The position numbers were made by a program, and so were the translations under genes. A stretch of 49,610 nt of DNA, from the IMG/VR virus record IMGVR_UViG_3300021960_000115, positions 1 to 49,610 of that record; one strand, given 5' to 3'. The DNA is from a virus. This document shows, piece by piece, positions 17,147 to 31,719 of the stretch. Positions within the stretch are counted from its first letter, which is position 1. Every line of letters starts with the position of its first letter. Below the pieces are notes generated by a model. It did not search any database. It was not told the origin of the DNA and saw only the letters and a list, made by a program, of their open reading frames with translations.

Positions 17147-17212
17147 TTAGGGCTGAGTATGTAGATATGGGGCGGCTACGATGCTGTCATCGAGAAAAGC
17201 GTAGTGTGCCAT
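17147..17212 (-). pseudogene. truncated remnant of a MAHYAF-family gene
   Basis: A 21-codon frame starts with MAHYAFLDDSIV, almost identical to the first residues of the full gene at 19909-20292 (MAHYAFLDDNNIV), then stops. Its ATG shares the A of the preceding stop (TAATG), as in intact copies. The rest of the gene has been lost. It is a deletion scar in the fibre array, or a very short leader peptide. Confidence 0.6.
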
Positions 17213-18072
17213 TAGAGCGACCAACTAACTGCGTCAGAACCGCCAGTAAAAGTAGCAATAGTGTCACCGCCAATAGTTGACGTTGTATACGTCAAACCTG
17301 CGCCCACCGTCATATTGAAAGCAGACGAATAACGAAGAACAACAATTCCTGAACCACCATTACCAGTTCCGCTTGCTCCTGCACGACCGTTTCCGCCACC
17401 ACTACCAGTATTGGCTGTACCGCTTTGGCCACGATTACCACCGCCACCAGCACCACCAGTACCGCTAGAAGCACCGCCGCCAGCGCGGGTCACAGATGAA
17501 CCAGTAATTGTAGATGCAACACCGTCGCCACCATGACCAAAACCATCAGCATGTCCCACTTCGCCAGCACCACCACCGCCACCACCAGTTCCAGCAACAC
17601 CACTAATTCCCGGTCCACCGTTATAACCTTGGTTTGCTGTTCCGGCTCCGCCGGGACTGCCGTAATAACCGCCTGCGCCAGAGCCTGAACCGCCAGATCT
17701 TCCAGCAGTTCCCCATCCCGGACCGCCACCGCCGCCTACTGTAGAAACAGTACCGAACACTGAGGTTCCGCCTTGAACGCCTCGGCCTCCGCCGCCACCG
17801 ACCGTAACAGTAAAGTCAACATTTTTCTGTAAGGTCAACGGTGTTTCTGCCGATGCGCCACCACCTGACTGTTCGTTGTTCCACGAATTTCGGTAACCGC
17901 CCGCACCGCCAGCACCACCTTCTTCAGCGCCAGCAGAAGCGACACCGATGTTGCCGCCACCGCCGCCCGCAATCACCAAATACGACACAATAAGGTCGGG
18001 ATTGAAAGTGATTTTAGCGGTTCGATATTTGGCTCCCGTCAAACCCGACGTACTTGTAGTGGTTACAGCCAT
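17212..18072 (-). CDS. glycine-rich tail adhesin
   Basis: 286 aa. Residues 30-250 are made of Gly tracts with short spacers (LVIAGGGGG, GGAGGAGGYRNS, FTVTVGGGGG, GYNGGPG), the pattern of glycine-rich phage adhesins that fold as packed polyglycine-II helices, as in S16-type gp38. The end (GSGIVVLRYSS) is shared with other copies in the array. Such domains bind host surface receptors at fibre tips. It is one of six copies between 17.2 and 28.9 kb. It lacks the MAI-x-FP module and has its own short N-terminus. Confidence 0.75.
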   Translation of the reverse strand: MAVTTTSTSGLTGAKYRTAKITFNPDLIVSYLVIAGGGGGNIGVASAGAEEGGAGGAGGYRNSWNNEQSGGGASAETPLTLQKNVDFTVTVGGGGGRGVQGGTSVFGTVSTVGGGGGPGWGTAGRSGGSGSGAGGYYGSPGGAGTANQGYNGGPGISGVAGTGGGGGGAGEVGHADGFGHGGDGVASTITGSSVTRAGGGASSGTGGAGGGGNRGQSGTANTGSGGGNGRAGASGTGNGGSGIVVLRYSSAFNMTVGAGLTYTTSTIGGDTIATFTGGSDAVSWSL

Positions 18073-18075
18073 GAC

Positions 18076-18405
18076 TTACGAAATTTCAGAACCGTAAGCG
18101 TGAAACGAAAAGTCGCCAGATGACGCATACGCTTCAAGCACATCCGACGCATCCATTGTGACACCGATAGTTAGAATCATCGTGTCGTTTGCCGCAAGAT
18201 TAGCGTCATAGGCCAAATAATGCTGGTTAGCCAACGTCGCCCCATCAGGGCGGACCGCCAAACGAAACGTCCCAGCAGACCCAGCACGGTTACACACCGT
18301 CACAGACGATACAACTGTCTGAGTAGCAGACGGCACCGTATACACGGTAGTTGCCGTCGTAGCCAAGGGGGCCACCTGACCCAAGACCTTATAAGCAGTA
18401 GCCAT
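18076..18405 (-). CDS. small beta-rich structural protein
   Basis: 109 aa. ATTVYTVPSATQTVVSSVTV, then LAVRPDGATLANQHYLAYD and NDTMILTIGVTM. The layout (VPA or VPS, 'V.S..v.N..g....v...', 'T..ig.tl..') matches the gene at 28872-29210, so the two are paralogues or share a fold. It lies 3 bases from the adhesin gene. Probably a minor tail or fibre component. Confidence 0.65.
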   Translation of the reverse strand: MATAYKVLGQVAPLATTATTVYTVPSATQTVVSSVTVCNRAGSAGTFRLAVRPDGATLANQHYLAYDANLAANDTMILTIGVTMDASDVLEAYASSGDFSFHAYGSEIS

Positions 18406-18408
18406 TCT

Positions 18409-18867
18409 TTACGCTCCCATTAACATGAACATCACTGGATACGGATCTTCGACCCCTGTGATGGTGCCGGTAACTGACAGGTCACCGGCTACGGACACTG
18501 TACCATCTGATGCGATGGTCATACGCTCACTACCAGCCGTATCAAAGCGGATAGTGTCGTCGTCTGTACCTTCTTCGACGTGGACAATGGTGTCACCGTC
18601 AGCATCGGTCAAGAACGTAGTAACGGCGGCGGTGTTACCTAACTCCACCCATGCGCCGTCATAATACGTGAACGTGCGCCCCGTATCTGACTCATACCAC
18701 ATGTCTCCTGATACAGGAGAAGCGGGGGCCGTGTCGGAGATCTCAAGACTCAGGCCGCGCAGAACAGAGCCGTACAACTTCCAGTACGTGCCGTTCCATA
18801 CCCAAGTTTTGCCCCCTGAGGTAAAGGAGTCATTTACTGATGGGGACGACGGAAAGTCAATTGCCAT
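18409..18867 (-). CDS. tail fibre protein with MAIDFP module
   Basis: 152 aa. Three blocks: an N-terminal module (MAIDFPSSPSVNDSFTSGGK, then TWVWNGTYWKLYG) shared by five genes of the array; one copy of the 'SDTAP..P..GD.WYESDTG' module also repeated five times at 29275-29965; and a DGDTIVHVEE...DTAGSERMTI block shared with the gene at 19103. It ends soon after, without an evident receptor-binding tip, so it may be a shortened fibre or a connector. Confidence 0.7.
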   Translation of the reverse strand: MAIDFPSSPSVNDSFTSGGKTWVWNGTYWKLYGSVLRGLSLEISDTAPASPVSGDMWYESDTGRTFTYYDGAWVELGNTAAVTTFLTDADGDTIVHVEEGTDDDTIRFDTAGSERMTIASDGTVSVAGDLSVTGTITGVEDPYPVMFMLMGA

Positions 18868-19106
18868 CAGTTACCTCCTACGGGCAGGTCAGGAAGAATT
18901 GGGTTAGCGATATCAATAGTTGCTGGCAGGTCACGCAACGCCTGACGGTATGTGGCCCACGCTGAAGCGTCTACGGGTGCGTCAGCAATTTGCGTCCAAT
19001 CAGTGCGGGCCAGTTCGCTGTTACGCCACAAACGGACCTGCTCCAACTTCTGATCGTCGGTTGCGTCAGGCCACAAAAGGTTGAACTCAAAAAGTGTCAT
19101 TGTCAT
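18867..19106 (-). CDS. phage tail assembly chaperone-like protein
   Basis: 79 aa from the ATG at 19106, which overlaps the upstream stop (ATGA). Text such as VRLWRNSELARTDWTQIADA and WATYRQALRDLP is the signature of the Phage_tail_APC family (R-x-x-x-L-x-x-T-D-W-T-Q, YR-x-x-LR-x-L), small proteins found beside fibre genes and thought to help fibre folding. It lies directly after the fibre at 19103, consistent with a dedicated chaperone. Confidence 0.75.
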   Translation of the reverse strand: MTMTLFEFNLLWPDATDDQKLEQVRLWRNSELARTDWTQIADAPVDASAWATYRQALRDLPATIDIANPILPDLPVGGN

Positions 19107-19909
19107 GCCGCCTTGTAAAGAACATCCCATCGGAGGAAATCGCTTGTGGTCCAAGTAAAAGGATTAGTCGCGTTCACATTGGCCTCGCCGATCAGGCTAC
19201 CTGTCACGGAAAAGAACTTGAAACTCGCAGTAGTGCTACTTCCACCCGTCATGCCGAGATAAACGGCCGTGCCGCTGTCGTTGAGTTGGACGGTTCCACT
19301 ACCAAGTATCAAAAAGTCCTTGTTGACCGGCAAGTTGACAGACCAGTTGCCGGTCACAGAACTTGTTGAACCCAAAGTAACTTCGCCTATGAAGTGAACC
19401 AAATCGTTGACCTGTGTGTAGTAAGCCGACACCGTGCCATTGCCGAGCGTGAAGTTGTTGAACGTGACCGTGCCGCTGTAGTCGGTGTAGTTGCCCTGCG
19501 CCTCTAGTTGGGCAACCTTATAATCAAGGCTGGTCGTCACCGCAGACGAATCCGCACCCACCTTCGCCTGAAGAGCCTCGATTGCGGGCATCGTTCCAGA
19601 ATCCAACGTAGTGGGAAAGGTAGTAGACCCACCCGCAATAGTACCCGTAACCGTAAGGTCACCAGTCATAGCGACATTACCTGACGGGTTGATCGTCATA
19701 CGCTCGGTACCAGCGGTATCAAAACGTAAGTAATCTTCGTCGGGGGACTCTTCTACGTGGACGCGGGTATCGCCATCCGCATCAACGATCTGATTAGAGA
19801 TCGGGGTCGATACGACAACATCCCACGTCGATCCGTTCCACGTCCACGTCTTGTCACCGACGGTGACGGTGTCGCCGTTAGAAGGAGAATCGGGGAAATT
19901 GATCGCCAT
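19103..19909 (-). CDS. tail fibre protein with MAINFP module
   Basis: 268 aa. Begins with the MAINFPDSPSNGDTVTVGDK module, then the DADGDTRVHVEE and DTAGTERMTI block shared with 18409. A helical link (AIEALQAKVGADSSAVTTSL) could trimerise. The C-terminal 120 residues (FNNFTLGNGTVSAYYTQVND and onward) form a beta-sandwich tip typical of fibre ends. It is followed by its chaperone-like gene at 18867. Likely one of several alternative receptor-binding proteins. Confidence 0.72.
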   Translation of the reverse strand: MAINFPDSPSNGDTVTVGDKTWTWNGSTWDVVVSTPISNQIVDADGDTRVHVEESPDEDYLRFDTAGTERMTINPSGNVAMTGDLTVTGTIAGGSTTFPTTLDSGTMPAIEALQAKVGADSSAVTTSLDYKVAQLEAQGNYTDYSGTVTFNNFTLGNGTVSAYYTQVNDLVHFIGEVTLGSTSSVTGNWSVNLPVNKDFLILGSGTVQLNDSGTAVYLGMTGGSSTTASFKFFSVTGSLIGEANVNATNPFTWTTSDFLRWDVLYKAA

Positions 19910-20292
19910 TACTCGGCCTCAACTACTTCCCATGAGGTCGTGTCTTCGTTCCACGTGTACACCTGTCCGTCATCAGGCATCGGGGTGGGGGCGTCCCACA
20001 CACAGGTGTCCTCGTTCAGGACCCATGAAGCGTAAGGAGAAGGCGGGATGAAGGCATCACGGTCGGCATCGTACGTGTATCCGATACCGGCGTAGTTCTT
20101 ACGGTACGGGGTGCCGTCACCAGTGTGCTGTCCACCTCGCGTGTTGTACGAGGTGCGCTTACAGGTCTGGCCCCGAAAAGCACCGTAATGGGCCTCCCAG
20201 TCCGTAATACCGTCAACGGCCTCATCTTCGTTCCGTCCGACGATAACCTCGGTGACAATGTTGTTGTCGTCAAGAAATGCGTAATGTGCCAT
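19909..20292 (-). CDS. MAHYAF-family tail-cluster protein
   Basis: 127 aa. MAHYAFLDDNNIVTEVIVGR, then SYNTRGGQHTGDGTPYRKNY, AGIGYTYDADRDAFIPPSPY and ASWVLNEDTCVWDAP. This is a family I know from marine and freshwater phages, found next to fibre genes and possibly a fibre assembly factor or cap. Other copies here: 20310-20576, 27692-27973 and the remnant at 17147. TATAAT lies only 7 bases upstream of its ATG, so a leaderless start is possible, without a good -35. Confidence 0.7.
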   Translation of the reverse strand: MAHYAFLDDNNIVTEVIVGRNEDEAVDGITDWEAHYGAFRGQTCKRTSYNTRGGQHTGDGTPYRKNYAGIGYTYDADRDAFIPPSPYASWVLNEDTCVWDAPTPMPDDGQVYTWNEDTTSWEVVEAE

Positions 20293-20309: not shown

Positions 20310-20576
20310 TTACTCGGGGGCGGGTTCTTCAGTTACAGGGGGCGGTACGAACTCGTCAAGGTCAGGGTCGTAGGTGTAGCCAAGTCCGGCATAAGTGCCA
20401 CGGAAGTTCCCGTTGTAGGAGGTTTGTAGCCATTCGCCAGACAAACCTAGAACGTCAGCGATAAACGCCTGTCCCTGTTGCTCGTTGTCAGGGGCAGGAT
20501 CGGGTGCTACGTCGTCGCTGATGACGATGACCTGCTCAACTACGTTGTGTTCGTTGATTTGTGCAAAGTGTGCCAT
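20310..20576 (-). CDS. MAHYAF-family tail-cluster protein, short copy
   Basis: 88 aa. MAHFAQINEHNVVEQVIVIS, then WLQTSYNGNFRGTYAGLGYT and YDPDLDEFVPPP. It has the N-terminal and 'AG-G-YTYD' parts of the family but not the 'YASWVLN' tail, so it is a shorter paralogue of 19909-20292. It lies just after the adhesin at 20580. Function unknown; fibre assembly is inferred from context. Confidence 0.7.
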   Translation of the reverse strand: MAHFAQINEHNVVEQVIVISDDVAPDPAPDNEQQGQAFIADVLGLSGEWLQTSYNGNFRGTYAGLGYTYDPDLDEFVPPPVTEEPAPE

Positions 20577-20579
20577 GTC

Positions 20580-21485
20580 TTAGACCTCCACTCTTACGAC
20601 GATGATGCCGGAGCCGCCCGCACCACCAAAAACGCCACTGACACCTGCTTGTCCTGCGCCGCCGCCACCACCACCGGTGTTAGCGGTTCCAGCAGTCCCA
20701 GCCGTTCCACTACCGCCAGCACCGCCGCCGCCGGTACCACCGGCACCGCCAGTTGTGGCACCGCCACCACCGCCACCTGCGTAATCAGTAGCCGAGCCAG
20801 TAATCGATGATGATGCGCCTGCTCCGCCAGCACCGCCAGTGCCAGCCGTCGCATTACCACCGACCGCGCCAGCACCGCCGCCGCCGCTACCGTCAGCAGT
20901 GGAGGTGCCGCCGTTATTCCCTTGTCCCGGTACTCCCGGTGCAGCAGTCGCATAATAGGCGGTGCCGCCGCCAGAGCCTCCCGCATTGCCTGCGACATAG
21001 AGCATGCCGTTACCGCCGCCGCCGCCGATGCCGTAAAAGTCTCCGATTCGTGAGGTCGTGCCGTTTAGCCCTTTGCCCCAACGGTCACCACCTGCAACCC
21101 ATTGAAAACTTGCGCCGCCGCCGCCCACTGTCACCGTGTAGGTCGTGGCGTCGAAGTAGGCGAGCGACGAGGTGAGCATGCCGCCCGCGCCGCCGCCGCC
21201 TTGGCCGGTTGTGAAGTCGCTAGAGGCTCCGCCGCCGCCTCCGCCACCGACGACGAGGATGTCGGCGAGACCGGCGGTGTCGAACGTGATCGTACCCGAT
21301 GCCGTGAACGTCAAATACTTGTAGTCTTTGCCACCTGACGAATACGTGCCGGTGGCGGTGTCGGTGAAGTTGGCTGCTCTTCGCACCTGCTCCACCAGCC
21401 AAGCGGTACCGTCCCATATCCACGTAATGTCCCCAACCTTATGGGTGTCATCTACTGAGGGGGCGTCAGGGAAGTTGATCGCCAT
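20580..21485 (-). CDS. glycine-rich tail adhesin with MAINFP module
   Basis: 301 aa. Residues 1-35 are the MAINFPDAPSVDDTHKVGDI module and WIWDGTAWLVEQ. A link (FTDTATGTYSSGGKDYKYLT, FTASGTITF) leads to ILVVGGGGGGGAS and a long glycine-rich part, ending GGSGIIVVRVEV. The codons for the N-terminal module share a 21-base identical stretch with the adhesin at 26802. Likely receptor-binding fibre tip. The high-GC repeats make it a likely site of recombination. Confidence 0.75.
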   Translation of the reverse strand: MAINFPDAPSVDDTHKVGDITWIWDGTAWLVEQVRRAANFTDTATGTYSSGGKDYKYLTFTASGTITFDTAGLADILVVGGGGGGGASSDFTTGQGGGGAGGMLTSSLAYFDATTYTVTVGGGGASFQWVAGGDRWGKGLNGTTSRIGDFYGIGGGGGNGMLYVAGNAGGSGGGTAYYATAAPGVPGQGNNGGTSTADGSGGGGAGAVGGNATAGTGGAGGAGASSSITGSATDYAGGGGGGATTGGAGGTGGGGAGGSGTAGTAGTANTGGGGGGAGQAGVSGVFGGAGGSGIIVVRVEV

Positions 21486-21487: not shown

Positions 21488-21796
21488 TCAGACCTCAGGG
21501 TTGGGATAACGAGATTTGATTTCCGCACGCTTATTAAGCCATTCCTGTTCGGTGATCTCTCCGGCTTGGTATTGGAAGAACAGTGGGTCAGATTCTGTGA
21601 CGTAGGCGGCGTGCCGTTGGCGATCCACCTCGGCTTGTTGGCGTGCCTGTTGGACTGCTGGCCATGCGGCATCCAACTCAGCCTGCGTCGGCTTCGGGTC
21701 GTCTGACAGCCAGTCAAGGGTATCGTAATCGTTATCGGTCAGAGACCATTGAGCGCCCGCATAATTGGCGGTTAGCACAGCGGCGTAATCGGTCAT
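21488..21796 (-). CDS. XkdW-like tail-cluster protein, copy 1
   Basis: 102 aa. MTDYAAVLTANYAGAQWSLT, PKPTQAELDAAWPAVQQARQ, then DPLFFQYQAGEITEQEWLNK and AEIKSRYP. The pattern of XkdW-like and tail-chaperone-like small proteins. A close paralogue sits at 22747-23058. Each copy directly follows a fibre gene and precedes the next, so each is probably the partner of one fibre. Confidence 0.7.
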   Translation of the reverse strand: MTDYAAVLTANYAGAQWSLTDNDYDTLDWLSDDPKPTQAELDAAWPAVQQARQQAEVDRQRHAAYVTESDPLFFQYQAGEITEQEWLNKRAEIKSRYPNPEV

Positions 21797-22746
21797 GCCG
21801 AAACCTCCAAAAGCGTGAGCGACGAGGTAGCCGTAACGGGGCCGACGTCGTTTCGATTGACAAACAGAGTGCCTGCGTCAGTTCTGGTTTGAATTTTGTA
21901 AACCACAGCGCTTGTAGTTGCTGGACTATCCAAATAGTTGAAATGCACGTTCTGGAAATTCTCTTGGTAAAACTGCGCGGTGGCCGCATAGGCGCCGCCG
22001 GTTGGCTGTGCAATGGTAGAACCGTCACGAACAAGGTTCAGCGGGCTGACGCGTCCCGCGGCCGGTCCGGTGTGCGTCGTGTAAAGCACCAATACTTTGT
22101 TTGACGCTGAGGACGGCGTGATCGTTGCGGTGTGGCCGGTAATGTCGACGAAACTTGTCGAACTCGTTGAAAATGTTCCGTCGATGAACGTTGACACGAC
22201 TTGAAGAATCTTGCCGCCGCCGCCAATCGCGGCCCACGATGAGCCGTCGTACACCTCCACCGAGTTCGTATCCTGAAGATACGACAAATCAGCCTCAGAA
22301 GGGGACGGAATCGCCGTAGTACGGGCCGATGAGTCAGCATAAGACGCTAAAGCGATCTTTGATCCGTTAGGTGGGACACCAAACTCAACCCACTGTTGGG
22401 AAGAACCGTCGTCGTAATACACGAACGTACGGCCTGAAACTTCGTTGTACCACATCTCTCCTTCTGACGGAGAAGAGGGGGCCGTTGAGGAAACCGTCAT
22501 ACCGGCCCCAGAAATCGATCCACCAGAAATCGTCCCCGAAACCGTAAGGTCGCCGGTTACGTCTAACGCGGTCGTGGGGGACGTGTTGTTGATACCGACA
22601 CGGTTGGTACCGGTATCAATCTTCAGGACGGTGGGGTCGGGATAGTTGCCGTATGCGGCCCAGACGGTACCGTCCCACTGCCACGTCCGCCCCCCAGCAG
22701 TGTACGTGTCTCCAGTAGTAGGAGAGTTCGGAAAGTCGATAGCCAT
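21793..22746 (-). CDS. modular tail fibre protein with MAIDFP module
   Basis: 317 aa. Modules in order: MAIDFPNSPTTGDTYTAGGR and TWQWDGTVW (1-35); VGINNTSPTTALDVTGDLTV (35-75), as in many fibres; one 'SSTAPSSPSEGEMWYNEVSG' module (80-125); a 'TTAIPSPSEADLSYLQDTNS' module shared with 27973; and a beta-sandwich tip from about 180 (GKILQVVSTFIDGTFSTSST) that closely resembles the tip of 23055-23618. It is a mosaic of parts found elsewhere in the array. Confidence 0.75.
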   Translation of the reverse strand: MAIDFPNSPTTGDTYTAGGRTWQWDGTVWAAYGNYPDPTVLKIDTGTNRVGINNTSPTTALDVTGDLTVSGTISGGSISGAGMTVSSTAPSSPSEGEMWYNEVSGRTFVYYDDGSSQQWVEFGVPPNGSKIALASYADSSARTTAIPSPSEADLSYLQDTNSVEVYDGSSWAAIGGGGKILQVVSTFIDGTFSTSSTSFVDITGHTATITPSSASNKVLVLYTTHTGPAAGRVSPLNLVRDGSTIAQPTGGAYAATAQFYQENFQNVHFNYLDSPATTSAVVYKIQTRTDAGTLFVNRNDVGPVTATSSLTLLEVSA

Positions 22747-23058
22747 TTAGGGGGCCTCCGGGTAGGGATAGCGTGCTCTGATGGAGTCTACCGCATCCAG
22801 CCACTCTTGTTCTGTAACTTCGCCCCTCTGGTATGAGAAGTAGAGGGGGTCGGCTTCTTCTCTGTAAGCGTTTTTACGTTGGGTTTCTACTTCGTCCCGT
22901 TGTTGTTGGTATTGAACTTGGGGCCATGCTGCATCCAACTCGGCTTGCGACGGCTTTGACGTATCAGACAGCCATGTCAGACCGTCGTAGGTGTCACCAT
23001 CCAACGTCCACTGGGAACCGAAATAGTTGGCGACGAGCACAGCGGCGTAATCGGTCAC
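22747..23058 (-). CDS. XkdW-like tail-cluster protein, copy 2
   Basis: 103 aa. MTDYAAVLVANYFGSQWTLD, KPSQAELDAAWPQVQYQQQR, DPLYFSYQRGEVTEQEWLDA, RARYPYPE. Paralogue of 21488-21796 along its whole length. It overlaps the fibre gene at 23055 by 4 bases. Inferred fibre-assembly partner. Confidence 0.7.
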   Translation of the reverse strand: MTDYAAVLVANYFGSQWTLDGDTYDGLTWLSDTSKPSQAELDAAWPQVQYQQQRDEVETQRKNAYREEADPLYFSYQRGEVTEQEWLDAVDSIRARYPYPEAP

Positions 23059-23618
23059 GCTGACACCTCCATGACGGTGATGGTGGACGCGGAGCGAACG
23101 TGTGAGTTGGTATCTGAGTCCGTGATGCTGCGGTTGACGTAGATTGCCGCTGGTGTTGAGTTCGGCACGACGACTTGCACTTTGTAAGTGGTTGCGCTCG
23201 TCGTGGACGGTGAGTCAAGGTAGTTCACAGCGACAGTCGTTGTATCCGCACCTGCAAGCATGTAACCAGCGCTGGAAACAGACAGACGGCTTCCTGCCGT
23301 ATCGCCGACGGCGATTGCGGTGCTGTCGCGGACAAGCCTCATCGGCGGGCGGTCATAAGCGCCTGCCATGTTGACGTTCGCAACGACGAGAATCTTGGAC
23401 GATGCGGCTGATGGGGTGATGGCTACAGAGAGGCCGGTCACATCGGTGAACGTGTCTGCGATGGTCGCCGAGAAAGTGTCGGTCTTTGTGGTGGACACGA
23501 CCTGCAAAATCTTGCCTGCCCCCACACCAGCAAACGTCAAATTACCAGAAGCATCAGACGTAGCAATAGACGTACCGTCAGAGTTCTCCCAGTTATCAAA
23601 ACGAAGAATAGAAGCCAT
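23055..23618 (-). CDS. tail fibre protein with MASILRF N-terminus
   Basis: 187 aa. The N-terminus MASILRFDNWENSDGTSIAT is a short fibre-start module common in environmental phages. From residue 35 the beta-sandwich tip GKILQVVSTTKTDTFSATIA continues to VNYLDSPSTTSATTYKVQV, parallel to the tip of 21793-22746. So two fibres share a tip but have different virion-attachment modules. Confidence 0.72.
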   Translation of the reverse strand: MASILRFDNWENSDGTSIATSDASGNLTFAGVGAGKILQVVSTTKTDTFSATIADTFTDVTGLSVAITPSAASSKILVVANVNMAGAYDRPPMRLVRDSTAIAVGDTAGSRLSVSSAGYMLAGADTTTVAVNYLDSPSTTSATTYKVQVVVPNSTPAAIYVNRSITDSDTNSHVRSASTITVMEVSA

Positions 23619-23819
23619 TTAGATATCCTCCTCTGAAGGGGGCGGTGCGATCCAATCAGAACCGTCATAGGTCCATCCGGGACCCGCACCAACACCATCA
23701 GGAACCTTGACAAGCGTGATGTCATCACCCGGATCGTATTCGGTGACACCATCCCACACGGAACAGTTCACGACCAGCCCTTCTGGGTTGACATGGGCAT
23801 ATCGAAATACTTCATCCAT
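23619..23819 (-). CDS. small tail-cluster protein
   Basis: 66 aa. RYAHVNPEGLVVNCSVWDGV, PGDDITLVKVPDGVGAGPGW and TYDGSDWIAPP. The 'V.N..vWDG...y.p....tLV......PGWTYDG' pattern is frequent in small proteins beside fibre genes. It overlaps the adhesin at 23819 by one base. Function unknown; assembly factor by context. Confidence 0.65.
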   Translation of the reverse strand: MDEVFRYAHVNPEGLVVNCSVWDGVTEYDPGDDITLVKVPDGVGAGPGWTYDGSDWIAPPPSEEDI

Positions 23820-24478
23820 TACGCAAACAACTCCACGATTACGATTCCGTCAGCACCATCGCCACCACCGTTATCTACACTTGACCCGCCGCCGCCGCCC
23901 CCGTAGACACGGCCCGCACTCCCTGCGCCGCCACCGGCCCGTGAACCACGGCCACCGCCGCCCAACGGACTGCCGCCACCATTGCCGCCACCAAAGTCAC
24001 CTAGACCCGAACCGGGCGCACCGTCACTACCGGAGAACACAACATCCCCTGTTGACCCTCCAGCCGAGCCGCCATAACCGCCGTTAGTCGCATTACCGCC
24101 CGTCCCGCCGCCATGATCGGCGACAACTAGCGTGCCGAACGACGAATCGCCGCCAGCCGCGCCCTCACCCTGACTGCCAACGGACTTACCAGCACCACCC
24201 GCACCAACCGTCACCGTTTCCGATGCCGCCAAACCAGCGATGTCAGTAATAAACGATTCTACTAATGCGCCGCCGCCACCACCAGCGGCACAATCGCCGC
24301 TCGTAGCACGGTTGCCGCCGCCACCACCGCCAGCCTGACACCTCACACGAATCGCCCTCAGCCACGGATACGTCGCCTTCGTGAACGTGCCATCAGAAGT
24401 GAAATACAAGGTATCAACATACCGGTAGGTATCAACGCCCCCGCTTGTAGCAGAAGTATTAACTCTTAAGGTACTCAC
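23819..24478 (-). CDS. glycine-rich tail adhesin with MSTLRV start
   Basis: 219 aa. Starts MSTLRVNTSATSGGVDTYRY, a fibre-start module, then VRCQAGGGGGGNRATSGDCA and continuing glycine-rich blocks to GGGDGADGIVIVELFA. Its ATG overlaps the stop of the gene at 24475. Sixth type of glycine-rich tip in the array, with two Cys in the first part. Inferred receptor binder. Confidence 0.75.
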   Translation of the reverse strand: MSTLRVNTSATSGGVDTYRYVDTLYFTSDGTFTKATYPWLRAIRVRCQAGGGGGGNRATSGDCAAGGGGGALVESFITDIAGLAASETVTVGAGGAGKSVGSQGEGAAGGDSSFGTLVVADHGGGTGGNATNGGYGGSAGGSTGDVVFSGSDGAPGSGLGDFGGGNGGGSPLGGGGRGSRAGGGAGSAGRVYGGGGGGSSVDNGGGDGADGIVIVELFA

Positions 24479-24735
24479 TGGGGGGCCTCCAAACCAAAGG
24501 CTTCCTTGATTTCATCAACGGTCAACCCTAAAGCCGCCAACTTCTCAATAGCAGACTGCTTAGTAGCATCTTTAGCGGCTTGAGCATCAGCCTCAGCCTG
24601 CTCGGCGGCTTGTGCTTCCATAGCCTTATCAACCCATGCCGTCCACTCAGCCTCCGTCATCGCGCGAATTTCACCGTCCTGCTGGACGTTGACCGTGCCG
24701 AGCGGATGTTGTGCTTCGTACTCTACCCTACTCAT
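24475..24735 (-). CDS. small coiled-coil tail-cluster protein
   Basis: 86 aa. DGEIRAMTEAEWTAWVDKAM, then a helical run rich in Ala, Glu and Gln (EAQAAEQAEADAQAAKDATK) and SAIEKLAALGLTVDEIKEAF. Similar short helical proteins stand beside fibre genes in many phages. Overlaps the fibre gene upstream (ATGA) and the adhesin downstream. Likely a fibre chaperone, not proven. Confidence 0.65.
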   Translation of the reverse strand: MSRVEYEAQHPLGTVNVQQDGEIRAMTEAEWTAWVDKAMEAQAAEQAEADAQAAKDATKQSAIEKLAALGLTVDEIKEAFGLEAPQ

Positions 24736-25358
24736 GACTTCGAATACCCGTAAACGTCAATAGTTCCGCCGGTCAGAGTACCGGTATCCGTACCCACCGT
24801 GAACGAGGTGTAAGAAGTTGCGTCATTAAGAAAACCACTATAATTGGAGTTTGTTCCTGCTCCAGAAACGGGTGTAAGTCTAGGTTGAAGAGACATAAAA
24901 GAAGTTGCTTTTTCTAGATAAGGCTGCATTATCGTTGCGTTCATTGTTAATCCTAGCGAACCAGCCTGACCTGCATAGGTCCAGTTGGCAGCGTTGACCT
25001 GTCCCACGCCAGCAATTGCGGCGGTGCTATAAACTTGGTATATCAAACCGCCGTAATATCCCGTAGTGGTTGAACCCATTTGAACACTTAAGTTGATATT
25101 TGTAGAACCAGCGCCGCCACTAATAATGATTTTGTAGGTATCGTAATCAGCAGAAAACGCATTTGACACAGTGACCGACGACACCGCCGACCCGATCGTC
25201 GTCCGACTGATAAACACCAAACCGGCACTAACAACAGCAGAACCACCGATCTGCAAACCGCCCGCATCAGCAACATTCAAACTATGACCAGTGGGGACAG
25301 AAATAACATTACTGTTCTCAACCAAACCCTCAATAGACCCGACCGTTAACCTACTCAT
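24732..25358 (-). CDS. tail fibre protein with MSRLTV N-terminus
   Basis: 208 aa from the ATG at 25358, which forms an ATGA overlap with the previous stop; an upstream in-frame start at 25370 is less likely. Residues 1-40 (MSRLTVGSIEGLVENSNVIS, VPTGHSLNV) form a start module; the rest (ISRTTIGSAVSSVTVSNAFS, DYDTYKIIISGGAGST) is a beta-sandwich fibre tip. Followed by the helical chaperone-like gene at 24475. Confidence 0.7.
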   Translation of the reverse strand: MSRLTVGSIEGLVENSNVISVPTGHSLNVADAGGLQIGGSAVVSAGLVFISRTTIGSAVSSVTVSNAFSADYDTYKIIISGGAGSTNINLSVQMGSTTTGYYGGLIYQVYSTAAIAGVGQVNAANWTYAGQAGSLGLTMNATIMQPYLEKATSFMSLQPRLTPVSGAGTNSNYSGFLNDATSYTSFTVGTDTGTLTGGTIDVYGYSKS

Positions 25359-25666
25359 ACAATACTCCACTCACTACCAGAAGAAACTGTTACTGTTACT
25401 CCATCAGCAATAGTAATTGGACCCGCCGACATACCATTGTATCCTGACGGAATTGTATAATCCGCTGTGATGGACTGTCCATTGAGATAGATGGGGACGC
25501 CCACGGCGTTAGCGTGGAGAATCCATGAGGTGCCGTCGTACACGTAGGTGTATTCGGTGTCGGTTTCGTAGATGACCTGCCCGTTGTAGGGCAAGGCGGG
25601 TCGGGTTGTGGACGTGCAGACACCCGGTTGAAGAATACTGTTCGGTACAGAGTTACTTAAGCCCAT
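25355..25666 (-). CDS. small fibre-related protein with GQVIYETDT module
   Basis: 103 aa. ILQPGVCTSTTRPALPYNGQ and VIYETDTEYTYVYDGTSW form a module also present at the N-termini of 25657-26802 and 27973-28872. The rest (LNGQSITADYTIPSGYNGMS, AGPITIADGVTVTV) is a short beta-helix-like end. Here the module stands almost alone. It may be an adaptor that joins a tip made by another gene. Confidence 0.65.
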   Translation of the reverse strand: MGLSNSVPNSILQPGVCTSTTRPALPYNGQVIYETDTEYTYVYDGTSWILHANAVGVPIYLNGQSITADYTIPSGYNGMSAGPITIADGVTVTVSSGSEWSIV

Positions 25667-26802
25667 GATACTGTTCCTGTTCCAGCAGTAAAGACGGTGA
25701 CTTTATCTGCGCCTACTGTTGTGGTTGTTGCAGTCAGGCCCACTCCGATGTTGATGGTTCTATCTGATGTGTAACGAAGTATCACAACACCTGATCCACC
25801 ATTTCCTCCAGCGTTAGCGCTAACACCGCCTGCGCCGCCACCACCGCCGCCAAGATTCGCTGGGGCAGAACTTCCTGTCGAATTCTGTGCTCCGTTCGCA
25901 CCGCCGCCGTTTCCGCCCGCTCCACCAGCCGCATTCTCACATCCACCACCGCCGCCACCAGCACGAAAGACAGAAGCACCTGTGATTGATGATGGCAGCC
26001 CGACTCCGCCTGCGGGTGAAGTATTAGTGCTCGCCCCGACGCCACCAGCACCGCCGCCCCCGCCGCCTCCGTAGGGGGCGCCCGATCCGCCACCTCCTCC
26101 ATTATAGCCTTGGCTAGTGGTAGCAGTACCGCCAATTCTTTGCCAGCCGCCTCCTCCGCCAGAACCACCATCTGCTCCATCGGTGGCGTTTGAGGCACCG
26201 CCGCCACCACCGCCAACTGCCGTAGTATCGACAAAAACGGAATCACTTCCACTAGGAGCAACTGTTCTCTGACCTGCTGTTGCTCCGGCTCCTCCGGCTC
26301 CTACAGAAACAGTATAATTGTCTCCAAACCTTAGCGTTGAAACGGTCTCGGTTGCACTATTTCCACCAGAAGATTCTAAAGCGTAAGAGTTCCTGTAACC
26401 CCCTGCGCCGCCTCCTCCCCCAGAGCCAGTAGCGTGGGCAGTAGCCCCACCTCCTCCACCACCAGCAAGTACAAGAAATGCAACATCAAATGTTGGTGCG
26501 TTTCTAAAGTTTACCCAATCACCTAAAGATGATGAATACCACTCGGGTTCACCGGTAGTCTCATTAAATCTCATCTGACCGGCAGTAGGAGAAGAGGGGC
26601 GTTCGGCAGTAGTACCAGAAGGCAACTGCACACCTTCACCAGACGTATCACCAATGTTCACCCATGCAGATCCGGCCCACACATACACTTTGCCGGTATC
26701 TGTTTCGTAGATGACTTGTCCGGTGAACGGGTTATCTGGGCGGTCTGTTGAAAGACATACCCCTGTTTTGAGAGAACCTGAAGAAGTAGAAGAAACAGCC
26801 AT
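25657..26802 (-). CDS. glycine-rich tail adhesin with GQVIYETDT module
   Basis: 381 aa, the longest glycine-rich copy. Residues 1-55: GVCLSTDRPDNPFTGQVIYE and TDTGKVYVWAGSAWVN; 55-100: a second module (TTAERPSSPTAGQMRFNETT); from 105 VAFLVLAGGGGGGATAHATG and about 240 residues of Gly-rich text; end GGSGVVILRYTSDRTINIGV. The end resembles 17212-18072 (ILRYxS, V-G-x-GLT-x-T). Overlaps the next gene by 10 bases. Confidence 0.75.
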   Translation of the reverse strand: MAVSSTSSGSLKTGVCLSTDRPDNPFTGQVIYETDTGKVYVWAGSAWVNIGDTSGEGVQLPSGTTAERPSSPTAGQMRFNETTGEPEWYSSSLGDWVNFRNAPTFDVAFLVLAGGGGGGATAHATGSGGGGGAGGYRNSYALESSGGNSATETVSTLRFGDNYTVSVGAGGAGATAGQRTVAPSGSDSVFVDTTAVGGGGGGASNATDGADGGSGGGGGWQRIGGTATTSQGYNGGGGGSGAPYGGGGGGGAGGVGASTNTSPAGGVGLPSSITGASVFRAGGGGGGCENAAGGAGGNGGGANGAQNSTGSSAPANLGGGGGGAGGVSANAGGNGGSGVVILRYTSDRTINIGVGLTATTTTVGADKVTVFTAGTGTVSWA

Positions 26803-27692
26803 CAGTTTTTGAACCTCACTAAGACAATGCCAGAACCGCCGGGACCAGCGGTACCAGTTGAATCTCTGGAGCCGCCGCCACCGCCAGTATTAGCGTCACC
26901 GTAACCGTCAGTTCCCGATGCGTTGCCATCACCGCCGCCACCGATTCCTCCGCTACTGCCTGCGCCGCCGTCGCTAGAACCGCCGCCACCACCGGCGTAA
27001 TAGGTCGTCGTGGCAGATTCTCCACGCCACGCCGAAACGTCCGCTCCTGCGCCGCCATTACCGCCGACACCGCTACCGGAACCATTAGAACCTGCCGCAC
27101 CTGCCCCGCCGCCGCCACCGCCACCGGCTGGTGAACCGCCAGCACTTCCGCCGTCGTTGCCGGTGATCCCATCACCCGGCATCGGCGCAAAGAGTGAGTA
27201 GCCGCCGCCACCGCCCGAACCGTGGCCGCCGCCACGCTCTTGGAACCGGCTCCGACCGGTGCTACCGGTAGCGGCCACGATGCCGCCAACGGCACTTGCC
27301 GTCCCGTGAGTCCGTAGGGCACCGCCCGCACCAATCGTGATGGTTTGGTTCGTGTCGAAATACACCTTATCGACATACATGAGGCCGCCAGCGCCGCCGC
27401 CGCCGCAGTAGATCGAATCGCTCACACCGCCTGCGCCGCCGCCGACCATCAGCAGGTCAAATATGCCAGCGTCCGTCACGGTGAGCGTCCCCGATGAGTT
27501 GAACGTGAGCATTGTGTAGGACTCGCCGCCAACGGTGATCGTGGCGGACGAATCGCCTCCCGTGGCAGTACCATAACGAACATCAGCAACACGGTTACTG
27601 ATGTACCACGTTGTACCGTTCCAAGTGTATTCAATATCACCTGCGGTATAGGTATCGTTTACTGAGGGGGCGTCAGGGAAAGATAAAGGCAT
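26802..27692 (-). CDS. glycine-rich tail adhesin with MPLSFP module
   Basis: 296 aa. MPLSFPDAPSVNDTYTAGDI and EYTWNGTTWYI are the fifth copy of the MAI-x-FP module. A link (YTMLTFNSSGTLTVTDAGIF) leads to DLLMVGGGAGGVSDSIYCGG and further Gly tracts, ending GPGGSGIVLVRFKN. Strongly parallel to 20580-21485. Overlaps both neighbours by one base. Likely alternative receptor-binding tip. Confidence 0.75.
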   Translation of the reverse strand: MPLSFPDAPSVNDTYTAGDIEYTWNGTTWYISNRVADVRYGTATGGDSSATITVGGESYTMLTFNSSGTLTVTDAGIFDLLMVGGGAGGVSDSIYCGGGGAGGLMYVDKVYFDTNQTITIGAGGALRTHGTASAVGGIVAATGSTGRSRFQERGGGHGSGGGGGYSLFAPMPGDGITGNDGGSAGGSPAGGGGGGGAGAAGSNGSGSGVGGNGGAGADVSAWRGESATTTYYAGGGGGSSDGGAGSSGGIGGGGDGNASGTDGYGDANTGGGGGSRDSTGTAGPGGSGIVLVRFKN

Positions 27693-27973
27693 TAGTTACT
27701 CACCACCTGCCAATTCACCGACGCCTCATCCCAAACATACGACTCACCGTCATCAGGCATCGCCACCGGCGGCTCCCACACATAGTTGTTCAACACCCAC
27801 GACGCATACGGCTGAGGCGGAATAAAGCCGGTGCCGTCCCATTCCCAACCGATACCCGCAGGCATCGCATCGGTGTATTCGACTTCGTTCGGGCCGACAG
27901 TCCAATCATCGGAAACAACGATGACGTTCTGAACAATGTTGCCGTCTAGTACGGCTACGGTGCGTTCGGTCAT
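27692..27973 (-). CDS. MAHYAF-family tail-cluster protein (MTERT copy)
   Basis: 93 aa from the ATG at 27973 (ATGA overlap with the previous stop). The frame is open further upstream, but that region codes for the adhesin in another frame. MTERTVAVLDGNIVQNVIVV, then GIGWEWDGTGFIPPQPYASW and VLNNYVWEPPVAMPDDGESY. The C-terminal half matches 19909-20292 (PYASWVLN, MPDDG-x-x-Y-x-W). Inferred fibre-assembly role. Confidence 0.72.
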   Translation of the reverse strand: MTERTVAVLDGNIVQNVIVVSDDWTVGPNEVEYTDAMPAGIGWEWDGTGFIPPQPYASWVLNNYVWEPPVAMPDDGESYVWDEASVNWQVVSN

Positions 27974-28872
27974 CACGACTCCTGATATTCGATCCAGACG
28001 TAACCCGAACCGCCATCGGCCCCAGTATCGCCGCCGCTCCCAGTACCGCCCGCTCCGACCGTTACGGTGATCGAAGCGGCGGGTGTTACGTCGGCTCCTG
28101 CGACGATGTACGCGCCATCCTCGGCTTGACCGTTTTCGCTCGAACCGATCTTGCCTGCCCAGCCGTGTGCGCCGTGGCCGCTGTTGGCTTGTCCTGCTAC
28201 CGCTCCACCTCCGACGATGTTCGAGCCTCCGCCGCTCACATAGATGCCATTGCCGCCGGTGGCGGTAACGGTGCCAGAGGCGAACGCGACAGAGGACGAG
28301 CCGCCCTGACCTAGCGTGCCACCATTGATTCTGACGTTCCCACCGCCGCCACGGATATGGGCGACCGCATACGTCACACCCGCAGGCACCGTCCACGAAC
28401 CCGAACTAGTAAATGCTGCAACTTTTGTCATCTTGCTGATACCTTTCCAAGACGATCCATCGTAAAACTGAATAGCGTTTGTGTCTTGTAGGTAGACCAA
28501 ATCTGCTTCTGTTGGAGAAGTTATTGCCGCGTCTCTGGCCGTTGAGTCAGCGTAAGAAGCCAGAGTTATAGAAGAACCAGACGGCGGAGCACCAAACTCA
28601 ACCCACTGTTGAGACGACCCATCATCATAATAAACATAAGCACGACCATCATCAGAGTCATACCAAATATCCCCGGCAGCAGGACTAGAAGGGGCCGCAG
28701 AAGAAATAACAGCACCCTTATTGCTTTCCCACGCAGAACCAGACCAGAAACGAATGTTATTCGTATCAGTCTCGTAAATAACCTGACCAGAATACGGATT
28801 AGCAGGGCGAGTTGAACTAGTGCATACCCCGGGCCTAATACCTAGACGCCCCAAAGCAGCATCAAGAGCCAT
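27973..28872 (-). CDS. mosaic glycine-rich tail adhesin
   Basis: 299 aa from the ATG at 28872, which overlaps the previous stop. Modules: RPGVCTSSTRPANPYSGQVI (10-45); SSAAPSSPAAGDIWYDSDDG (55-95); ITSPTEADLVYLQDTNAIQF (115-145), shared with 21793; then a glycine-rich tip (AVAHIRGGGGNVRINGGTLG and on) ending GSGYVWIEYQES. It combines parts from three other fibres in the array. Less pure Gly than other copies. Confidence 0.73.
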   Translation of the reverse strand: MALDAALGRLGIRPGVCTSSTRPANPYSGQVIYETDTNNIRFWSGSAWESNKGAVISSAAPSSPAAGDIWYDSDDGRAYVYYDDGSSQQWVEFGAPPSGSSITLASYADSTARDAAITSPTEADLVYLQDTNAIQFYDGSSWKGISKMTKVAAFTSSGSWTVPAGVTYAVAHIRGGGGNVRINGGTLGQGGSSSVAFASGTVTATGGNGIYVSGGGSNIVGGGAVAGQANSGHGAHGWAGKIGSSENGQAEDGAYIVAGADVTPAASITVTVGAGGTGSGGDTGADGGSGYVWIEYQES

Positions 28873-29210
28873 CAGACTTCCTTCACCCAACCAACACCAG
28901 TGATATTCACACCGGATCTATCTGAAATAGCCTGCACAGTTTCGGTAGCAGTCATCACCAACGCAGTGTCGAACACCACCGTGTCATTACCTGCGACCGG
29001 CAACTGGTAGAAAATAGCGTTACTTGCCGTCGTTACATCCCCAACAGACACGGTAACCCACGCATCCACACCATTCGTGTTCGTGAAGATGAACTGCTTA
29101 GTTACCCAGACACGGCTAGCGGGGACGGTGCCGACGGTACCGGCAGATGCTGCTGTTGCTATCTCTGAGGGGCCGAAGACCCTAGTCTCTGTGCGATCTC
29201 CTGCTGCCAT
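28872..29210 (-). CDS. small beta-rich structural protein
   Basis: 112 aa. TETRVFGPSEIATAASAGTV, PASRVWVTKQFIFTNTNGVD, AWVTVSVGDVT. Fold-level similarity to 18076-18405. Overlaps both neighbours by one base. Likely minor tail or fibre component; function unknown. Confidence 0.65.
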   Translation of the reverse strand: MAAGDRTETRVFGPSEIATAASAGTVGTVPASRVWVTKQFIFTNTNGVDAWVTVSVGDVTTASNAIFYQLPVAGNDTVVFDTALVMTATETVQAISDRSGVNITGVGWVKEV

Positions 29211-30328: not shown

Positions 30329-30345
30329 GACTCAGTCCCTTCCGT

Positions 30346-30361
30346 GGGGGCCGCAACCCCC
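30346..30361 (-). other. short GC hairpin between fibre genes
   Basis: GGGGG and CCCCC separated by 6 bases in the 38-base gap between two fibre genes. It lies 18 bases before the GTG start and may influence translation or mark an RNA processing site. Confidence 0.25.
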
Positions 30362-30366
30362 TTATG

Positions 30367-31719
30367 TCAGCCCGTTACGACGATGCGGTAATCGCCAGAG
30401 GTGATGCTGGCACCGTTAATGGTGACAGTAGCAGCACTGGTGGAGGTGCGGACGGAGTCAGCGATCACCGTCGCGCCCGTGGACACCTCAAAGACCTGAA
30501 CGAGGATGTCCTTGGTACCGAAGTTGTGAGTCACCGTAGTGATGCTGGTCGAACCCGAAGAGGCGGCACAGTCCTGAGCGGCAACGCGGGCCAGCGTCGG
30601 AGTGCTCGTCGTCCCAGAGGTGGTATCAGCGAGGTTGTTACGGGCGTCAGCAGCGGTGCTGGCACCGGTACCACCATGGGTAACCGGAAGATCATTGGTA
30701 ACCGCCGCACCCTGCGAGAGGTCAAGAGCGCCCCACGTCGGGGTAGTTCCCGCCCCGTCAGAGATAAGAACCTCATACTGGGTGGCCGACGACTTGACGG
30801 CGACATTGTCAGAACCGTCAATGTAAGTCGTAGATCCATCGACGTTGACATCGATCTGGTTCGACTGAGTGCCCGACTTGGAGAGACCGTCACCAGCAAC
30901 GATCTGCCCAGCGCCAGAGAACTTGGCAAAGGTTAGAGCAGTCGTGTCAAGAGTGATGGTGTCATTGGTGGAGAGCACCCAGCCCGAGTCGCCGTTAGCG
31001 GCACCCTCAGCAACGAAGGTGAAAAGTCCAGCGGTAACCTCGGCGCTGGAGTCGGCGTCAGTCGAACGTGACCATGCGCCGCTGGTGGAGACGACGTAGA
31101 TACCGTTCTCAGAGCCAGTGGACTGGTCCTTGACAAGGACGCGGTCCCCGTCAACAAGCGTCACACCGTCGATGCTGGTCGTGGTGTTGCTCAGCGAGAT
31201 GTCGGAGCCGGTGGTGGCAACTCGCACCGACTGCTTAACGTCAAGACCGGAACGGGCCGCATCGACGTATGCCTTGTTAGCAGCGTCGGTGTCAGCGGTG
31301 GGGGCGACAAGACCAGTGACCTTGTTCGCAGTGATGTCGTTAGCAGCGAAGTCGCCAGAAGCATCACGGAAGACAATCGTGGAACCGGTGTTGCTAGAGG
31401 TAGCGGCATCCAACTTGGTCTTATCAGCCGCCGACATAACGCCGGGATCAGTGGAGGTCGCCGCATTGGGAGTGATGCTGACCGAACCGTTAGACTCGCT
31501 AACGCTAAGAGCAGCAGAGTTGCCCCCCGCCGAAGCAACGGCGTGAACAACCTTGCGCCAGCCCGTTCCGTCGTACCACTTGATGACGTTTTCGGTGGTG
31601 TTGTAGACAACGCGACCAACGAAGTTGCCAGTGGTGGGATCGGAAGCAAGGCTTTCAAAGCGACCATTTACGATCTGATTCTGGACCAGATCAAGATTTG
31701 TAACGAACTTCGTTGCCAT
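30367..31719 (-). CDS. tail fibre/minor structural protein
   Basis: 450 aa. MATKFVTNLDLVQNQIVNGR at the start, then VGRVVYNTTENVIKWYDGTG, ADKTKLDAATSSNTGSTIVF, APTADTDAANKAYVDAARSG, SIDGVTLVDGDRVLVKDQST and LPVTHGGTGASTAADARNNL: a well-known set of fibre-shaft motifs in environmental phages. The last 80 residues are a beta-sandwich (ITTVTHNFGTKDILVQVFEV). First large fibre gene after the capsid region; likely the main long fibre. Confidence 0.8.
   Translation of the reverse strand: MATKFVTNLDLVQNQIVNGRFESLASDPTTGNFVGRVVYNTTENVIKWYDGTGWRKVVHAVASAGGNSAALSVSESNGSVSITPNAATSTDPGVMSAADKTKLDAATSSNTGSTIVFRDASGDFAANDITANKVTGLVAPTADTDAANKAYVDAARSGLDVKQSVRVATTGSDISLSNTTTSIDGVTLVDGDRVLVKDQSTGSENGIYVVSTSGAWSRSTDADSSAEVTAGLFTFVAEGAANGDSGWVLSTNDTITLDTTALTFAKFSGAGQIVAGDGLSKSGTQSNQIDVNVDGSTTYIDGSDNVAVKSSATQYEVLISDGAGTTPTWGALDLSQGAAVTNDLPVTHGGTGASTAADARNNLADTTSGTTSTPTLARVAAQDCAASSGSTSITTVTHNFGTKDILVQVFEVSTGATVIADSVRTSTSAATVTINGASITSGDYRIVVTG

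Follow-up and report, generated by a model that had tools for sequence, protein, structure and literature searches.

The Ackermannviridae carry a branched tailspike complex of up to four TSPs, whose conserved domains the authors propose to be homologous recombination sites (PMC11414711). In the jumbo phage phiKp24, graded N-terminal modules are thought to set the position of fibres in a branched tree (PMC9700779). In Alteromonas phages A5, V22 and P24, a tail fibre and its cognate chaperone form one module that occurs across families, in otherwise unrelated genomes (PMC10579305), and the gp25 chaperone of cyanophage Pam3 has a variable client-binding N-terminus and a conserved C-terminal helix (PMC9608196). 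P-SSP7 holds a row made of gp17 and several small 'tail fiber' genes (NC_006882), and the Anabaena myophage A-1(L) is known to have neck fibres (PMC10966104).

Here we analysed a 49,610-nucleotide stretch of viral DNA (IMG/VR record IMGVR_UViG_3300021960_000115; hereafter the window), a fragment of a contractile-tailed actinophage, as indicated by WhiB and by relatives of Streptomyces phage BRock; the virus hosts, as we describe them, are water-dwelling actinobacteria. Its minus strand holds, between 17212 and 31719, twelve fibre-like genes (F1-F12) and two leader genes (Table 1). We read this locus as probably an ordered, portable fibre operon with interchangeable tip-plus-chaperone cassettes, serving a many-tipped adhesion apparatus made, most likely, of tail fibres. 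A sequence-only reading of the same DNA had counted about eleven fibre genes; we find twelve, eleven of them with a recognisable start module (F12 has none), together with eight small chaperone-like genes. The array genes share a single strand and are spaced by -28 to +17 nt, all frames are open, and Shine-Dalgarno-like sequences stand at many starts. Scans for sigma-70 promoters and terminators within the array gave no clear excess, and a megablast search of 50,697 phage records with the region as query returned zero matches.

Table 1. Features of the fibre array and its flanks, in order of decreasing window position.
Feature	Position	Strand	Evidence
Major capsid protein, backbone anchor upstream	32611..33690	-	phrog_1357 E=5e-61; 60% id to Streptomyces phage BRock group
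L1 leader protein, MATKFVTNLDL..., 450 aa	30367..31719	-	ORF; phrog_2647 'head decoration' E=3e-45
L2 leader protein, tandem bead modules, 372 aa	29210..30328	-	phrog_9729 tail fiber, 5 stretches
x0, connector-like gene, 110 aa, MAAGDRTE...	28872..29210	-	70-83% aa identical in other arrays
F1: GVCTSSTRP stem, bead, Gly-containing tip (YVWIEYQE end)	27973..28890	-	ORF, N-terminal matches
c1, chaperone-like	27692..27976	-	aligns with phrog_7759-type small genes
F2: MPLSFP stem, Gly_rich_2 tip	26802..27692	-	PF21722 54 bits
F3: GVCLSTDRP stem, bead, Gly_rich_2 tip	25657..26802	-	PF21722 80 bits
F4: 103-aa GVCTSTTRP stem, short ...ADGVTVTVSSGSEWSIV end	25355..25666	-	77-83% aa identical across backbones
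F5: MSRLTVGSIEGL stem, t3 tip (...GGTIDVYGY)	24732..25370	-	stem 76-90% id, tip 19-42% id vs same slot elsewhere
c2, class k5, after t3 tips	24475..24735	-	small-gene classification
F6: MSTLRV stem, Gly_rich_2 tip	23819..24478	-	PF21722 45 bits
c3, class k7, after Gly tips	23619..23819	-	small-gene classification
F7: MASILRF stem, GKILQVVS (t2) tip	23055..23618	-	t2 tip-family profile vs PDB 9efk
c4, class k1, XkdW-like, after t2 tips	22747..23058	-	XkdW match below cut-off; model pLDDT 95.5
F8: MAIDFP stem, bead, GKILQVVS tip	21793..22746	-	ORF, module matches
c5, class k1	21488..21796	-	small-gene classification
F9: MAINFP stem, Gly_rich_2 tip	20580..21485	-	PF21722 75 bits; model matches Pam3 fibre 7ypx
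c6	20310..20576	-	phrog_7759 E=2.5e-26
c7	19909..20292	-	phrog_7759 E=4e-40
F10: MAINFP stem, t4 tip	19103..19909	-	tip homologous to G001 tip on MSRLTV stem
c8, Phage_tail_APC chaperone	18867..19130	-	PF16778 E=2.4e-15, 56.5 bits vs cut-off 26.6
F11: MAIDFP stem + bead, without tip, ends FMLMGA	18409..18867	-	
Connector-like gene, 110 aa, between F11 and F12	18076..18405	-	phrog_1276
F12: stemless Gly-rich protein	17212..18072	-	phrog_2295 E=4e-27; PF21722 20 bits
HNH/Endonuclease VII gene, inserted at array edge	16305..16835	-	PF02945 E=4e-16
Collar-domain tail fibre protein, conserved downstream flank	14565..16289	-	PF07484 E=7e-13

Within the GVCTS set (F1, F3, F4), and likewise within the MAI-x-FP set (F2, F8-F11), 60-residue N-termini match one another at E=1e-18 to 1e-10, far beyond chance, which bears out the shared start modules proposed earlier; four of five claimed MAI-x-FP starts are exact, and the fifth (F2) reads MPLSFP. 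The bead modules seen in that reading were recovered, with at least four in the second leader and one each in F1, F3, F8 and F11, as were its six glycine-rich tips, four of them (F2, F3, F6, F9) above the Pfam cut-off for PF21722 (Gly_rich_2; 24.3 bits), F12 just under it and F1 with 27% glycine in its last 150 residues. Its two GKILQVVS tips (F7, F8) also stand, and the profile of this tip family (t2) matches the C-terminus of chain orf22 in PDB 9efk (E=1.9e-42), for which a literature search found no describing paper. Foldseek placed the glycine-rich model of F9 closest to the Pam3 fibre 7ypx (E=4e-6, prob 1.00, TM-score 0.44-0.51), and the model also matches a Bxb1 tail-fibre structure. No Pfam match to a T4 gp10-like XD docking domain was found in F1-F12 at E<=1. 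The true start of F1 is probably 28872, and the start of c8 may be internal. The window genome holds several distinct receptor-binding-type proteins with conserved N-termini and variable C-termini.

A homologue of the first leader (43% identity) heads the array of a contig with an unrelated backbone (L297), the second leader ranges from 183 to 1098 aa across arrays, and the conservation of x0 extends to arrays on unrelated backbones. The three-gene order of F11, phrog_1276 connector and F12 recurs in other arrays, and the Endonuclease VII/HNH gene is missing, without a scar, in G028 and G029. Other fibre-like proteins are encoded at 689-2665, close to the window's distal tail end.

The location of the array could also suggest capsid, neck or collar fibres, that is, an ordered tip-swapping array on the head or neck whose products would bind the host surface or a polysaccharide before the tail engages. 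In the window and in array D, the fibre block begins soon after the major capsid gene, and in array F it is close to that gene; its first leader in the window matches a 'head decoration' family, and fibre-like proteins are present elsewhere, near the distal tail end; the neck fibres of A-1(L) offer a precedent (PMC10966104). We nevertheless consider this reading unlikely: most PHROG matches among the fibres are to 'tail fiber', the glycine-rich model resembles tail fibres of Pam3 and Bxb1, and the t2 homologues of P-SSP7 come after gp17 and are annotated tail fiber. Moreover, a tail assembly chaperone (PF16778) and a fibre with a Collar domain stand in or beside the block, and BRock has, in the same interval, a gene annotated tail fiber.

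For comparison of arrays, a scan (A4) returned about 80 loci, of which only about ten are true array relatives, the others having the GVCTS motif alone. Relatives found through the capsid mostly have no array (capsid-to-sheath interval of ~3-5.5 kb) and therefore could not be used for slot comparison. Every one of arrays A, B, H, C, I, D, E and F (D, E and F being contig fragments) keeps the order F1<F2<F3<F4<F5<F6<F7 among those of these stems that it carries, and the stems scored in J, K and L, where F5 has no match and F6-type stems match at only 40-52%, do not contradict it. The window's own F6 stem shares no more than 31-40% identity with other F6 stems. Stem order is also kept on three backbones without the window's capsid and terminase proteins, and a search for these two proteins in G046, G039, G042 and G037 found nothing. 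On the evidence of these comparisons, similar arrays occur in phages whose heads and portals are different. Given the constant stem order, we dropped the idea that whole cassettes shuffle freely.

Rearrangement of cassettes within one genome during growth, such that a single clone yields particles with different fibres, is in our judgement very improbable. One genome does hold several related stems and tips, tip classes occupy different slots in different phages, L295 has a second copy of F4, and G039 and G046 have a serine recombinase upstream of their arrays. However, a contig 99.97% identical to the window over 19.3 kb (G027) has the same order with no rearrangement, and further near-identical contigs (100% over 5.8 and 7.1 kb) also keep one order, assemblies displaying the dominant form only. 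Inside the window, stretches of DNA similarity between stems are short (20-77 nt), all array genes are on one strand, no resolvase/invertase (PF00239) was found in the window fragment or ten BRock-like relatives, and no reverse transcriptase (PF00078) in the 15 records searched. Two specific mechanisms were rejected on these grounds: Mu/P1-type invertible fibre cassettes, on the PF00239 result and the single strand, and a diversity-generating retroelement, on the PF00078 result.

While stem order is kept, tips differ. The sibling L294 has flanks 95.8 and 95.7% identical in nucleotides to the window, and its F4 is 99% identical in amino acids; its tips differ at F1, F3, F5 and F6, almost every shared slot, and F2 is absent. 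The sequence-only reading had proposed recombining cassettes, to be refuted by identical order in relatives without recombination. Stem order is constant, yet a backbone of ~96% nucleotide identity carries other tips, so that modular parts exchanged by recombination are supported and whole-cassette shuffling inside one phage is not supported. In slot 5, amino-acid identity is 83% for the stem and 23% for the tip between arrays A and H, and 86% and 19% between A and C (shuffled baseline 22%). Slot-5 pairs with unlike tips are 88% identical in nucleotides over the stem and 51% over the tip (random 50%), a drop that occurs inside ~60 nt. Exchanged segments are bounded by the stem/tip junction on one side and by the next gene's Shine-Dalgarno on the other; in 7/7 arrays the slot-5 small gene ends in GAGGCCCCCCA[AG]TGA although the body of this gene differs, and G001 has a chimeric small gene. 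Tips are also found on other stems, as sister phage B has a MAIDFP stem bearing the F1 tip class (56% aa) and the t4 tip of F10 is related to the G001 tip on its MSRLTV stem (33% aa, E=3e-15).

The earlier claim that each fibre is coupled to a chaperone-like gene is wrong, since such a gene directly follows only seven of the twelve (F1, F5, F6, F7, F8, F9, F10); F2, F3, F4, F11 and F12 have none directly after them. Small-gene classes were taken from stricter clustering, single linkage having lumped k1 with others. Neither c5 (23.0 bits) nor c4 (17.2 bits) reached the cut-off for XkdW (PF09636; 24.6 bits), and the k1 chaperone model gave no match to solved structures. With slot controlled for, tip class predicts small-gene class (p=2e-4), and with tip controlled for, slot adds nothing (p=0.34), in permutations that counted related arrays as independent. 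Tips of class t2 are paired with k1 in 13/13 cases on four different stems, t4 with k2 or k9 in 8/8, and t7 with k8 in 3/3. Across a wider set, t2 precedes k1 genes in 54 of 56 cases and glycine-rich genes precede phrog_7759-like genes in 71 of 86, against a base of 105/425. Judged from these alignments and pairings, the exchange unit is the tip plus its small gene, which move together between slots and between the genomes of different phages.

Rapid tip turnover between siblings, and an array size that varies from ~16 fibre genes in B to few in G002, might point to a storage array in which only some fibres enter virions and others are held as recombination stock. We find this improbable, as the frames are open and tightly packed with many Shine-Dalgarno-like starts, and the stems keep slot-specific sequence that a passive store would not need.

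Under the ordered-operon reading, each gene would be a slot, with a short stem serving as its address in a fixed operon order and joined to a variable tip, and seven tips would each carry their own downstream small chaperone gene. Co-infecting phages would exchange tips by homologous recombination at shared stems, the distinct stems may assemble into one branched complex with many tips per virion at once, and the small genes would be tip-specific folding chaperones. One virion with many simultaneous tips, suggested before as a 'mixed fibre tail', is a plausible interpretation of the gene content and the one we favour. A fuller version, which we put forward tentatively as possible rather than probable, is a portable adhesin rack: leader and ordered stems would form a standard scaffold common to unrelated actinophages, its slots would take tip and cognate chaperone as plug-ins, recombination at the stem end and the next Shine-Dalgarno would swap single tips with assembly intact, and the virion would show a dozen or more tips. 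If right, this would supply a clear rule for the renewal of host recognition by phages of uncultured aquatic actinobacteria, with scaffold and order kept and tip and chaperone replaced; many 'hypothetical' small genes could be annotated as tip-specific chaperones, and the arrays would supply natural data on stem/tip junctions that tolerate exchange. The locus illustrates one way in which phages may re-tool a many-armed gripping apparatus.

Among known systems, BRock (Borockvirus) shares with the window a homologous capsid (60%) and portal (51%), but in the interval from its capsid to its sheath only one tail fibre is annotated, and it has no array. The Ackermannviridae TSPs resemble the array in that several receptor-binding proteins combine conserved structural modules at the N-terminus with C-terminal specificity parts that can be exchanged, whereas the array has 12 to ~16 short fibres with other N-terminal modules, glycine-rich or beta-type tips, separate small chaperones and unrelated backbones, and no match to a gp10-like domain. 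The hyperbranched fibres of phiKp24 (14 putative) are comparable in gene number, but are capsule depolymerases, and the available part of that account describes no ordered exchange of tip plus chaperone (PMC9700779). P-SSP7, like the array, has tandem t2-tip genes, here downstream of a main fibre (NC_006882), in a smaller row where we saw no arrangement into slots with cognate small chaperones of the array's classes. Pam3 gp24/gp25 (PDB 7ypx) is alike in the gp25-like layout of the small genes and may be alike in its glycine-rich fibre fold, at a TM-score of only 0.44-0.51; Pam3 has a single fibre, and the k1 chaperone is without a detectable match among solved structures. Finally, Alteromonas phages A5, V22 and P24, like the array, have a fibre and cognate chaperone common to unrelated genomes (PMC10579305), but that work centres on one primary fibre/chaperone pair, whereas in the array many slots swap tips separately while stem order is kept.

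The predicted gene content of G000, a linear virus-contig fragment of 49,610 bases, shows a contractile-tailed phage whose capsid is 60% and whose portal is 51% identical to those of the Streptomyces phage BRock group. WhiB, regarded as an actinophage marker (PMC10202952), was also found in the long relatives and in contigs G039/G046. Since the window carries this marker and shows capsid and portal kinship to the BRock group, its host is probably an actinobacterium. Near the WhiB and ribonucleotide reductase genes lies a tRNA-Leu (taa) gene (42389-42462).

Structural and marker genes of the window
Feature	Position	Strand	Basis
Sheath	10491-12056	-	gene content
Capsid	32611-33690	-	gene content
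Portal	34575-36266	-	gene content
Terminase	38563-40134	-	gene content
WhiB gene	42920-43102		

The fibre array opens with two leader proteins (L1, L2) and a 112-aa gene. Behind them come twelve fibre-like genes (F1-F12, slots that mostly pair an N-terminal stem with a C-terminal tip) and eight small genes, spaced at -28 to +17 nt. A sequence-only reading had proposed mix-and-match cassettes, and its three start-module families were confirmed, with N-termini matching within the GVCTS (F1, F3, F4) and MAI-x-FP (F2, F8-F11) families at E-values of 1e-18 to 1e-10 and MSxLRV/MASILRF (F5-F7) as the third, as were two GKILQVVS and six glycine-rich tips. Five MAI-x-FP starts proved an over-count (four exact, one MPLSFP), and the chaperone-like gene said to be coupled to each fibre directly follows only 7 of 12 fibres. 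L2 (29210-30328) differs strongly in bead number among arrays (183, 285, 314, 372, 418 and 1098 aa; 657 in G002). At 17212-18867, a tipless stem ending xMxxGx, a gene of ~110 aa and a stemless glycine-rich protein form a three-gene cassette that may be a detachable adhesin arrangement; this type also occurs in arrays B, C, E, F, I and M.

Comparison arrays came from scanning with the capsid, tips, small genes, connector and F4 as queries: A (the window), B (G001 + G028), H (L294), C (L297/G046, also G039), I (L295), D (L290/G042), E (L289/G038), F (G037), J (L300), K (L302), L (L301) and M (G024). G001 and G028 overlap by 5,802 b without mismatch, giving B ~16 fibre genes. In the interval that the array occupies in the window, BRock has one annotated tail fiber and, from coordinates, the capsid-to-sheath distance is only ~3-5.5 kb in most long relatives. 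In D, G037 and G039/G046, searches detected no homologue of either the capsid or the terminase of the window; D carries a phrog_12 portal and a phrog_1623 capsid-region protein, array F a phrog_38 terminase and a phrog_1328 capsid, and G039 an integrase-like recombinase. D and the window share a 63% identical ribonucleotide reductase, so the gene pool of D is not wholly separate. In G024, array and leader occupy another place in the genome, upstream of the terminase. G039/G046 have a serine recombinase of the integrase or invertase family (L286:1501-2226) upstream of their array leader. L295 holds a second F4 start copy at the locus end (19983-20192), preceded by another glycine-rich fibre, possibly a segmental duplication of the array. 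Non-fibre genes within arrays (L082:1031-1528, L087:15177-16287) resemble 2-oxoglutarate oxygenases by eye; Pfam gave no match for the former.

We found that the F1 to F7 stems keep one order wherever present in arrays A, B, H, C, I, D, E and F. Array F has a MATNFPASLD stem in place of the GVCTS and MAI-x-FP stems and retains F5, F6 and F7. Arrays J, K and L agree for F1, F3 and F4, which is weaker support for a fixed order because F5 is missing from all three, the match of their F6-type stems is just 40-52%, and an F7-type stem occurs only in L. The window's F1 and F3 stems are 91 and 94% identical (aa) to those of C, which has an unrelated backbone, versus 75 and 78% to sibling H, suggesting transfer between lineages.

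Tips behave differently from stems in sibling H, whose backbone matches the window at 95.8% nt towards the capsid and at 95.7% on the opposite flank, endonuclease gene included. H carries other tip classes at F1, F3, F5 and F6, lacks F2 and has the MAI-x-FP part replaced; its F7 tip is of the same class at 36% identity, and its F4 is 99% identical. That Endonuclease VII/HNH gene (16305-16835), at the array edge in the window and L294 and cleanly missing from G028 and G029, could be a homing gene aiding transfer of the adjoining array. Tips also change slots: the t3 tip is on F5 in the window and on F6 in H, the window's F1 tip class is on a MAIDFP stem in B (56% aa), and the t4 tip of F10 is on F5 in B (33% aa). 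Across slot-5 pairs with different tips, stem DNA is 88% identical and tip DNA 51%, the random level, with identity falling within ~60 nt. At the other boundary, slot-5 small genes with bodies of different classes all end in GAGGCCCCCCA[AG]TGA (7/7 arrays), which is where the following stem has its Shine-Dalgarno and coupled start. In slot 6, the small genes of 7/9 arrays differ in their bodies but have DKLAALGLSVDEIRAAFGLEGN as a common tail. One small gene in G001 is chimeric, joining two classes found in the window. Such chimeras may work, since the Pam3 and Mu chaperones combine a variable client-binding N-terminus with a conserved C-terminal helix (PMC9608196).

Tip class and small-gene class share 1.93 bits versus 0.68 expected (49 fibre/small-gene pairs). 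The association persists within slot (p=2e-4), and slot adds nothing given tip (p=0.34), these p-values being only a guide as the arrays are related. Under stricter clustering, the t2 (GKILQVVS) tip was paired with small-gene class k1 (13/13, on F5, F6, F7 and MAI stems), t4 with k2 or k9 (8/8), t7 with k8 (3/3), and glycine-rich tips with k3, k4 or k7, except three singletons regarded as miscalled or unrelated genes. Among wider loci, t2 precedes a k1 gene in 54/56, and a glycine-rich gene precedes a phrog_7759-like gene in 71/86 (base 105/425). Outside the array group other small genes often follow t2, and its pairing with k1 is therefore not universal. Judged from these sequence pairings, tips travel together with their small genes. 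Genes with GKILQVVS tips also stand in tandem in other contigs of aquatic phages (L138, L142, L147, L167), so rows of several fibres may be common.

A profile built from 30 t2 tips matched the C-terminal 189 residues of chain 'orf22' (18 chains) in PDB 9efk (E=1.9e-42), an entry for which no paper was found; in P-SSP7, t2 genes that are annotated tail fiber lie behind gp17. The AlphaFold model of F9 (pLDDT 88.8) matched best, among PDB entries, the fibre of Pam3 and the tail tip of mycobacteriophage Bxb1 (E=4e-6 to 9e-5), at TM-scores of only ~0.4-0.5.

G027 differs from the window by five mismatches over 19,267 b with no rearrangement, and where contigs of B from separate assemblies overlap, they are identical as well. 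PF00239 was absent from the window and ten BRock-like relatives, and PF00078 from all 15 records. Because near-identical contigs are unrearranged and these families are absent, we think that exchange occurs between genomes, over evolutionary time; any rearranged minority in the population would not show in assemblies. The simplest account would be that co-infecting phages recombine homologously at stems of the same slot, the second crossover falling on the next Shine-Dalgarno or behind it. As the stems all stay distinct and hold their order, each may have its own place in an assembled structure, by analogy with branched RBP complexes (PMC11414711 and PMC9700779). That the array instead encodes head or neck fibres is a real rival: it begins close to the gene for the capsid, and L1 is similar to a head-decoration family.

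Each element has precedents: phages with many fibres, tips of modular build, and fibre/chaperone pairs, which also pass between unrelated phages. The literature consulted does not describe the combination seen here, in which unrelated phages keep their stems in one fixed order and exchange tip plus chaperone slot by slot.
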